Positions 16,330 through 18,858 of a stretch of 41,044 nt of DNA are shown piece by piece. The position numbers and the translations under genes are program-made. The notes beneath the pieces were generated by a model. The model saw only the letters and a list, made by a program, of their open reading frames with translations, ran no database searches and was not told where the DNA came from. Every line of letters begins with the position of its first letter. The first letter of the stretch is position 1. The DNA comes from Pleurocapsales cyanobacterium LEGE 10410 (GTDB lineage Bacteria > Cyanobacteriota > Cyanobacteriia > Cyanobacteriales > Xenococcaceae). Location of the stretch: the NCBI GenBank assembly GCA_015207195.1, contig JADEXJ010000041.1, forward strand, positions 1 to 41,044, in the 5' to 3' direction.

Positions 16330-18858
16330 ATGAATTTACCCGATCTCGTATCCTTCCTCCAGCAAAAAACCTGTCTGAGCATCTTATCAACCGTAGTTTT
16401 AGAAGCGATCGCAGCTAATTTTACCGAACAGACTATTGCTGCCAATCAAACTCTGATTATAGAAGATACTGAGCCTGAAGGCTTATACGTTGTTCAAGCA
16501 GGCAGGCTGGCAAGTAACAGCCAATCAGAATCTCGTTCTAGTAGTTTATTATCGGGGACGGTATTAAATCTATATGCTCTATTGTTAAAACAGCCGACCC
16601 AATATGAGGTTACAACTATTAGCGACAGCACAGTCTGGTTTATTAGTAGTGATAAATTTCGAGAATTAATCGAGCAATATTCTGAAATAACTCAAGCTTT
16701 TTCTCAACAATTAGCAACAGAAGTTAAAGAATTATCCCAACAGCTATTATTTGAACAAGAACGCCAGGTAATCTTAAGACCTTATCTAGTGAGTAAGGCA
16801 AAACGGGGAGTCATTGGCAAAAGCCGTTATGCCACCAGATTGCGATCGCAGATCAAACAGGCTGCCCAAACCAGACAATCAGTCTTGTTGTTTGGTGAAC
16901 CAGGACTAGAAAAAGATAATCTAGCAGCCCTCATTCATTTTGGTTCCGCAGCCCGTCGGCAACCAATTATTCAAGTAGATTGTTCTAAATTACAAACTAG
17001 TGGCGCAGAATTATTCGGTCGTAGTGGTGGCAAACCAGGATTAATTGCTTCCCTCCAAGAAGGCACCTTGATTTTAAACAATATTCATTTATTGCCCAAG
17101 GAGTTATTGCCCGCGATCGTCAATTTGGTTAAAAATAATCAATATACTCCTGTGATGCGTCCTGGAGGAGATTTTCGCGAACCTCAAACTTCTCAAGCCA
17201 GAATTATTCTAATCACCGAGCAAACCGTTCCTGCAATCAATTCTGTGGTGGATAACATCATCAGAGTTCCTCCCCTCAGAGTACGTAAAGCAGATCTGGA
17301 CGAGCAGATTAACTATTATCTCAACTTAATTGGACGCAACCAGTGTTTGCAGAAGACCAAAATTACTCCTGAAGCAATCAGAAATCTCCAGGCTTATGAC
17401 TTTCCCAACAACTTACGGGAATTAGAAAGTATAGTTGAACGGGCATTAACTCAACTTGAGGGTTGTGATGACATTACCGAAGAAATAGTCTGGCAGTCTC
17501 AAAGTAAAAAGAAACAGTATCGACTCAATTTACTCAACAAATATCCCCAGCTACGTCATTTTCTGCGGAGTGACTGGTTTCCCGACAGGATCAACTATGG
17601 TTTCGTTCTAGGCTTTTATACTTTAGTAGTCATAGTTCTCTTTGTCGCGCCTCAAAACCGTCAGGAGAATTTTGCCCTTAACTTATTCTGGGCGTGGTGG
17701 TGGCCCCTAATTTTGATTGGATTTCCTGTTGTCGGCAGGCTGTGGTGCGCGGTGTGTCCTTTTATGATCTATGGTGAAATTACCCAAAAGCTATCCTTAA
17801 TTTTGTTTCCTAGACAGTTAAAAAAATGGCCGAGAAACTCTGCCGAACAGTGGGGAGGCTGGTTTCTGTTTGGTCTGTTTGCCCTGATCTTGCTTTGGGA
17901 AGAACTCTGGAATCTAGAAAATACGGCATATCTTTCCGCTTGTTTGCTGCTGTTAATTACCGCAGGGGCAATGATCTTTTCGGCTATCTTTGAACGACGC
18001 TTTTGGTGTCGCTATCTCTGTCCCATTGGGGGGATGAATGGTCTGTTCGCCAAACTTTCGATGACTGAATTACGAGCGCAACAGGGAACTTGTTCGGCAG
18101 AATGCACTACTTATCAATGTTATAAGGGTGGTCCTGCTAAGGGGGAAGGACAGGAGACTAACGGCTGTCCCCTCTACTCTCACCCCGCACAGCTGACTGA
18201 TAATCGAGACTGTGTTTTGTGCATGACCTGTCTTAAAGCCTGTCCCCATCGCTCGGTAGAATTTAACCTTCGTCCTCCTGGGATCGAACTTTGGACGACT
18301 CATAACCCTCGTAATTACGAAGTAGCCTTATTATTTTTGTTGCTGAACGTGGTCTTCTTACACCGTTTACCTGAAATATCAGCTTGGTTGGGTTTAGATC
18401 TCCATCTAGAAAGATTTAGCAACCACGCCTTAGTATCCATAGTGATTTTGAGTATGCCTGTGGTTGTTCCTCTAATCGCTCAGGGCATCAACCTACTGAT
18501 AGGTAAATTAAATCGTAAATACAAACCCCGCAGATTTGTCGAGTTAGCCTATGGCTATTTGCCCTTAGTGTTGGCAGGTAACCTGGCTCATTATCTCGAT
18601 CTCGGCTTATCCGAAGGGGGGAGAATCTTACCCGTAGCTATGGCAACCTTTGGTTTAAACGGTTCGAGCCTGCCGATACTGGTAGCTCATCCTGCGGTAA
18701 TTGCTTTTTTACAGGGATCTTCTCTGGTTGTTGGTGTGCTGTTATCTATTCTGCTCACTCAAAAGATTGCCCGACAGCAGTTTAAATATTTACTTCCACA
18801 GCATCTAGCTGTTATCGGTTTGGCGATCGCTATGGGGCAGGTAATTGTCGGGTTTTAG
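16330..18858 (+). CDS. cNMP-binding / degenerate AAA+ / NapH-NosR-like polyferredoxin membrane fusion protein
   Basis: The 842 residues fall into three parts. Residues 1-145 resemble a Crp-type cyclic-nucleotide-binding fold (NQTLIIEDTEPEGLYVVQAGRL). Residues about 155-390 resemble the sigma-54-activator AAA+ domain: VIGKSRYATRLRSQI, a P-loop-like GEPGLEKD (189-196), ELFG, Walker B position LILNNI (247-252, DE replaced by NN), PLRVRKADL and NNLREL. The GAFTGA loop is missing and there is no helix-turn-helix, so sigma-54 activation is excluded. From about 420 there is a polytopic membrane domain with GRLWCAVCP (469-477), RRFWCRYLCPIGG (556-568), further Cys at 588, 592, 597 and 613, and a ferredoxin motif CVLCMTCLKACP (628-639). 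About five more spans follow. Function is unknown; a ligand-controlled electron-transfer or redox-sensing membrane protein is my inference. Confidence 0.85.
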   Translation: MNLPDLVSFLQQKTCLSILSTVVLEAIAANFTEQTIAANQTLIIEDTEPEGLYVVQAGRLASNSQSESRSSSLLSGTVLNLYALLLKQPTQYEVTTISDSTVWFISSDKFRELIEQYSEITQAFSQQLATEVKELSQQLLFEQERQVILRPYLVSKAKRGVIGKSRYATRLRSQIKQAAQTRQSVLLFGEPGLEKDNLAALIHFGSAARRQPIIQVDCSKLQTSGAELFGRSGGKPGLIASLQEGTLILNNIHLLPKELLPAIVNLVKNNQYTPVMRPGGDFREPQTSQARIILITEQTVPAINSVVDNIIRVPPLRVRKADLDEQINYYLNLIGRNQCLQKTKITPEAIRNLQAYDFPNNLRELESIVERALTQLEGCDDITEEIVWQSQSKKKQYRLNLLNKYPQLRHFLRSDWFPDRINYGFVLGFYTLVVIVLFVAPQNRQENFALNLFWAWWWPLILIGFPVVGRLWCAVCPFMIYGEITQKLSLILFPRQLKKWPRNSAEQWGGWFLFGLFALILLWEELWNLENTAYLSACLLLLITAGAMIFSAIFERRFWCRYLCPIGGMNGLFAKLSMTELRAQQGTCSAECTTYQCYKGGPAKGEGQETNGCPLYSHPAQLTDNRDCVLCMTCLKACPHRSVEFNLRPPGIELWTTHNPRNYEVALLFLLLNVVFLHRLPEISAWLGLDLHLERFSNHALVSIVILSMPVVVPLIAQGINLLIGKLNRKYKPRRFVELAYGYLPLVLAGNLAHYLDLGLSEGGRILPVAMATFGLNGSSLPILVAHPAVIAFLQGSSLVVGVLLSILLTQKIARQQFKYLLPQHLAVIGLAIAMGQVIVGF

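Follow-up and report, generated by a model that had tools for sequence, protein, structure and literature searches.

Within the window (the whole 41,044-nucleotide stretch of Pleurocapsales cyanobacterium LEGE 10410 DNA analysed here), a single gene encodes an 842-amino acid (aa) protein in which a Crp-like sensor fold, a sigma-54-activator (bEBP)-type AAA+ domain, and a membrane iron-sulfur carrier are joined. The fusion of these three parts is real. Its AAA+ domain is retained and not decaying: the Asn-Asn pair that stands in place of the Walker B acids hardly varies, and purifying selection acts on the domain. Selection has thus preserved a bEBP-type AAA+ domain that has lost its catalytic parts, in organisms that lack sigma-54, and the fusion suggests re-use of a transcription regulator's control unit to steer electron flow. 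Each single part is of a known kind; the link of a sister clade to cysK is new. The gene and its parts are arranged as follows.

16330..18858 (+): whole gene, 842-aa fusion protein (open frame, ATG start, homologue searches)
16429..16680 (+): Crp-like cNMP-binding fold, residues 34-117, cassette Glu lost (Pfam, alignments)
16681..16785 (+): long helix, residues 118-152, running into the AAA+ domain (structure model)
16813..17229 (+): sigma-54-activator-type AAA+ core, residues 162-300 (Pfam, alignments, fold comparison)
16894..16920 (+): P-loop GEPGLEKDN, residues 189-197 (sequence, motif counts)
17065..17085 (+): Walker B stretch TLILNNI, residues 246-252, Asn for both acids (motif counts)
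17278..17475 (+): AAA+ lid, residues 317-382 (Pfam)
17575..17988 (+): four predicted membrane helices, residues 416-553 (structure model, hydropathy)
17746..17760 (+): first membrane Cys motif, CX2CP, residues 473-477 (sequence, motif counts)
18007..18024 (+): second membrane Cys motif, CX3CP, residues 560-565 (sequence, motif counts)
18091..18246 (+): ferredoxin part, residues 588-639, eight conserved Cys, two predicted [4Fe-4S] sites (motif counts)
18313..18852 (+): five more predicted membrane helices, residues 662-841 (structure model, hydropathy)

A preliminary description of this DNA had proposed an unbroken 842-codon frame made of three parts, and both the frame and its composition are borne out. 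Pfam finds, in one chain, cNMP_binding (34-117, E 4.9e-12), Sigma54_activat (PF00158; 162-300, E 5.1e-14), AAA_lid_14 (317-382, E 4.2e-10), and the 4Fe-4S domain Fer4_5 (540-576, E 2.3e-8). The best 25 of 39 NCBIfam matches include NorR, NifA, NtrX, and NapH among others, all below cut-off. The P-loop, ELFG (227-230), LILNN (247-251), NNLREL (360-365), and the Cys motifs of the membrane and ferredoxin parts all lie where that description had placed them. A local assembly error is not the source of the fusion: one-frame homologues are present throughout the genus (13/13 genomes, its own included; all full-length except the copy in G008, which ends at a contig edge) and across the class. In a full-chain AlphaFold model, with a pTM of 0.61, the arrangement of the domains is not reliable, and contacts between them provide no basis for argument.

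The reading that we favour, with slightly less than even confidence, is that of a membrane-bound iron-sulfur electron carrier gated by a built-in regulatory head. The C-terminal half would connect the quinone pool with a soluble partner by electron transfer, the role that NapH/NosR-type modules are thought to have. The Crp-like fold and the long helix would lie on the cytosolic side, joined straight to the bEBP-type AAA+ domain, which may bind nucleotide and very probably does not hydrolyse it. The order sensor-helix-AAA+-output is that of a one-component bEBP, with a redox output standing where the DNA-binding one would be; the head would take its conformation or oligomeric state from its ligand or nucleotide state and, through this, open or shut the electron path. 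Nucleotide binding, oligomerisation, gating, quinone as the partner, and the direction of flow are all parts that we infer. Control of membrane electron transfer by the AAA+ fold, or redox sensing, had been proposed for it at the outset; either may apply. If the head does gate the membrane part, a transcription-factor control unit has been re-used to regulate electron flow.

The descent of the AAA+ part from bEBPs, which had been claimed, is upheld by the PF00158 match, by alignments to bEBPs, and by its fold. Compared with solved folds by Foldseek, the AAA+ model lies closest to the ATP-bound Walker B mutant of NtrC1 (3m0e; TMt 0.83, 2.0 Å), and the best solved sequence match of the head is VpsR (PDB 7v2b; E 1.9e-18 over 149-373). 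Motifs were counted in 157 deduplicated frames plus P0001, a duplicate of one of them (158 rows); leaving out seven rows with <300 aligned membrane-half residues gives 131 rows of the window's own (main) clade and 20 other rows, the latter including L045 (a main-clade member at 59%), a Deinococcus sequence, and two partial frames. The P-loop Lys is present in every scorable row, 128/128 main (one of which duplicates the window) and 17/17 other. The P-loop had been described as altered, and it is indeed changed, mainly by Gly194 to Glu relative to GESGTGKE of NifA and GESGTGKET of VpsR, with the lysine intact. Residue 196 is Asp in 128/128 main rows; in the others it is Thr (12/17) or Asp (5/17).

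The replacement of both Walker B acids by Asn is nearly complete in the main clade (Asn250 in 128/129 scorable rows, Asn251 in 129/129). Other rows have Asp (9), Asn (6), Glu (1), or another residue (2) at position 250 and Asn (11), Gln (4), or another residue (2) at position 251, and no scorable row has Glu at this second position. Strings resembling the GAFTGA loop (GAF[TS]G or FTGA) occur in 0/158 rows (157 distinct), as had been claimed for the window, and none of these rows combines this loop with an intact Walker B. The losses go beyond those first described. The arginine-finger string DL[YF][YF]R is likewise found in 0/158 rows (157 distinct), the NifA segment FREDLYYRL has no counterpart in the alignment of the 842-aa protein, and at position 363, where the window has Arg, 54/129 main rows have Arg and 52/129 have Lys. 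Because the Walker B acids and any GAFTGA- or DLYYR-like strings are absent and residue 363 is not conserved, ATP hydrolysis by the head is, to judge by its motifs, very unlikely. The label "dead" that the AAA+ domain had been given therefore fits hydrolysis only; nucleotide binding may persist, given the P-loop Lys and the canonical GxGKT of the sister clade. The protein shares the AAA+ fold and lid with NtrC, NifA, and PspF (TMt up to 0.83) but lacks their GAFTGA loop, Walker B acids, arginine-finger segment, DNA-binding domain, and sigma-54 partner. VpsR, a soluble transcription regulator, likewise shows no GAFTGA string in the alignment, and in its Walker B motif (LLLND) Asn takes the first of the two acid positions; the 842-aa protein differs in having Asn at the second place too, a membrane redox output, and no HTH that could be found.

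Against a gated carrier, the head may be a mere scaffold: an unresponsive AAA+ domain that bears the Crp-like fold and keeps the membrane proteins assembled, in dimers or in rings. The loss of the Walker B acids and the arginine-finger segment and the lack of conservation at Arg363 would fit such a structural role. However, a mere scaffold would need neither the P-loop Lys nor the Asn-Asn pair, both of which the main clade keeps, nor the canonical GxGKT that is found in the sister-clade AAA+ copies read, and we consider this explanation somewhat unlikely.

Selection was gauged from uncorrected pN/pS in 12 sequences of the genus and its neighbours. The ratio is 0.38 for residues 1-152, 0.23 for the AAA+ part (160-388), 0.11 for 396-660, and 0.25 for 661-842; with pS at 0.64-0.72, near saturation, constraint is if anything understated. 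The AAA+ part, which had been proposed to be reused, is therefore held under purifying selection. When rows are compared in the alignment, it is absent only from partial or frame-broken copies and from the Deinococcus relative. Split or frame-broken copies (L183, L050, L051 and L066, L061) occur in single assemblies and reflect either sequencing error or decay. Frames of 1134-1137 aa are present in three genomes (G037, G052, and G066); the long variant in G037 (L041:298-3645) has two AAA+ domains, the first with GEAGVGKVN and LVLDH, the second with GEPGLGKDN and LLLNN.

Cyanobacteria had been said to have no sigma-54, and its DNA-binding domain (PF04552) was not found in the window's genome. 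Among 116 class genomes one exceeds the cut-off, through a marginal 38-position match in a 94-aa frame. An earlier survey lists 29 cyanobacteria without sigma-54 or its activators (PMC3162934). Among the Sigma54_activat matches listed for the class, the strongest appear to be this fusion family (coordinates spot-checked), which thus appears to be the main bEBP-type AAA+ protein of cyanobacteria. One strong sigma-54-activator match (E 1.4e-74) lies outside the fusion family, at G068:C856:542-1042 (L188), in an assembly of ~1230 contigs, and is perhaps a contaminant.

The N-terminal part shares with the Crp/Fnr sensor domain the cNMP_binding fold and the long helix that follows; by analogy with Crp, this would be a dimer helix. 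It departs from Crp/Fnr in having Leu for the cassette Glu in most rows (120/122 scorable main rows, aligned to 5j3u) and no HTH that could be found. The place of the cassette Arg is held by Thr, Ala, or Val in 111/122 scorable main rows, with no Arg among the residues shown; in 25 rows an Arg lies two columns beyond, where it may be a shifted Arg. Cyclic nucleotides are thus unlikely ligands, judging by these residues. The sensor part is also absent or mostly absent in several members (e.g., L040, L043, L046, L087, L059, and L060), and members read of a short family, f12, start at the AAA+ domain, having lost the sensor fold and kept the remainder.

These observations bear on another explanation, that of a redox sensor: the iron-sulfur membrane domain would monitor the quinone or ferredoxin pool, with the head signalling to a protein partner, for example RNA polymerase. 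For such a contact with RNA polymerase we assume the mode of action of VpsR, an atypical activator, as the model, and VpsR is the solved chain closest to the head. In addition, RdhC, a protein of the NosR/NapH kind, was at first proposed as a transcriptional regulator (PMC5928378). Yet neither Pfam nor the best 25 of 39 NCBIfam matches report an HTH or another DNA-binding domain outside the AAA+ and cNMP parts, and the f12 members read do without a sensor fold while keeping the remainder. We consider a redox sensor rather improbable and again prefer the gated carrier.

The C-terminal half is predicted to be a polyferredoxin of nine helices that resembles NapH and NosR; no solved structure related to it was found. 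The structure model places helices at 416-439, 448-468, 502-526, 533-553, 662-687, 696-727, 736-773, 788-814, and 818-839, the third and seventh being weak by hydropathy. Lys and Arg number 5, 12, and 6 in loops 469-501, 554-661, and 725-739 and 1 in the short inside loop 815-817, against 1, 0, 1, and 0 in the loops on the opposite side; this pattern of charge puts the Cys motifs, both predicted clusters, and the head on one (cytosolic) side. Twelve Cys are conserved in the scorable rows, with one exception each at 631 and 638. Both membrane motifs had been described as CxxCP; this holds for the first, and the second is CX3CP. Of the cluster Cys, 628-639 fit CX2CX2CX3CP, while 588/592/597/613 are otherwise spaced, all four being conserved; parts of the ferredoxin stretch have pLDDT <50 in the model. 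When compared with solved structures, the membrane model gave nothing at E<=0.001 by fold, and by profile the best match (E 0.038) covers the ferredoxin motif only.

NapH, NosR, and RdhC have four helices and two CX3CP motifs in common, and the membrane segments of NapH are a proposed quinol oxidase (PMC5928378). In the fusion, too, a unit of four helices and two Cys motifs precedes a ferredoxin part. It differs in scoring far below the curated cut-off of the NapH/MauN model TIGR02163 (50.8 bits vs 213.05), in its CX2CP first motif and irregular first cluster, in adding five C-terminal helices and a regulatory head, and in having no recurrent neighbour genes. Stand-alone 4Fe-4S membrane proteins encoded on plasmids of Deinococcus ficus (452 aa) and Halobaculum halophilum (440 aa) match a 447-aa query at 31.6% over 5-389 and 25.4% over 1-397, respectively; at these lengths they are too short to include the head. 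The Deinococcus ficus plasmid protein is L168:7965-9323, kin of the membrane half with no regulatory head.

A survey across cyanobacteria, suggested at the outset, finds a relative at E<=1e-30 in 173/242 class genomes. Sorting by hand on E-values and a sister-clade search assigns ~159 of the 173 to the main clade, seven (G014, G017, G039, G057, G068, G217, and G230) to the sister clade only, and G079, G131, G151, G158, G186, G232, and G252 to f12, all but G158 and G252 having been read. Phylum members outside the class yielded no match at E<=1e-15 (0/58 genomes). Among named loci the window's closest kin are Pleurocapsa and Myxosarcina. Present in most sampled class genomes, the fusion appears to be unstudied: no published work on it was found among open PubMed Central papers.

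The main clade has no conserved neighbour or operon. The best neighbour family is found at 12/98 loci (loci >=8 kb, frames >=90 aa, several loci being cut by contig ends), so there is no known partner, and no conserved upstream motif is visible by eye in one alignment of close relatives. Identity with Fed9 (slr2059) of Synechocystis was considered and set aside: Fed9 is reported to adjoin txlA in many genomes (PMC4284462; see also PMC8887894 and PMC4307280), and the main-clade gene has no such recurrent neighbour, a comparison made by gene context.

A tree built from 108 rows and 300 columns of the membrane domain sets apart both the sister clade (9 rows, 100/100) and the f12 group (4 rows, 100/100). 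This tree is arbitrarily rooted and has one very long outgroup branch, and its bootstrap had yet to settle fully. The sister-clade loci (L170, L171, L173-L183, and L192-L220) include two on plasmids. In the 13 first examined, a cysK-like frame lies downstream on the same strand in 11, within 40 bp in 9, and one such protein compared with NCBIfam scores above the cysK cut-off. In an overlapping set of 29 loci, from the 29/242 class genomes that have the sister clade at >=59% identity or as fragments, cysK (cysteine synthase) starts <=1.2 kb downstream on the same strand in 20 (<=100 bp in 15); the other nine have none in the available downstream sequence, which in one is only 136 bp. As a control, a cysK-like stretch occurs in 2/117 main-clade loci, kilobases off, with flanks of <=1.5 kb for 37 loci and up to 10 kb for the other 80. 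Since the main-clade gene is also present in 22 of the 29 genomes, the two clades are not alternatives.

Rieske PetC-like, rhodanese, YgaP-type membrane, DUF302, DUF4079, Tll0287-like, and flavoprotein genes each recur near 3 to 5 of the 13 sister loci (for each, Pfam was run on one or two representatives), and single loci add DsrE, MerR-, ArsR-, and Rrf2-type genes. The flavoprotein has a weak likeness, far below cut-off, to the sulfide:quinone reductase model, and DUF302 and sqr are linked in Synechocystis (PMC5061849). A further candidate role is the maturation of a metallo- or sulfur enzyme, or delivery to it, in the manner of CcoG or NosR, with the head as a conformational switch. This would fit the likeness of the membrane module to NapH, hence NosR, and the genes next to the sister clade, which are cysK and, at some loci, those for DsrE, rhodanese, and Rieske proteins; but no client gene recurs near the main clade, and we regard this role as improbable.

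With the gated carrier as the preferred reading, the neighbouring genes suggest that the sister clade is a sulfide-dedicated version, and its cysK link points to sulfide as an entry point. A bolder proposal, which we consider improbable, is that these proteins form a distinct class of signal-gated electron valve, a one-component bEBP-built regulator with a membrane ferredoxin-quinone output in exchange for DNA binding, in most sampled class genomes, the stand-alone main clade being a general ferredoxin-plastoquinone valve and the cysK-linked clade its counterpart for sulfide. To our knowledge, the protein of one ferredoxin-plastoquinone route is not settled, and under this proposal the main clade would be a candidate for it. 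Sister-clade copies are at present annotated piecemeal, as 'cyclic nucleotide-binding domain-containing protein' or 'nitrogen assimilation regulatory protein'.
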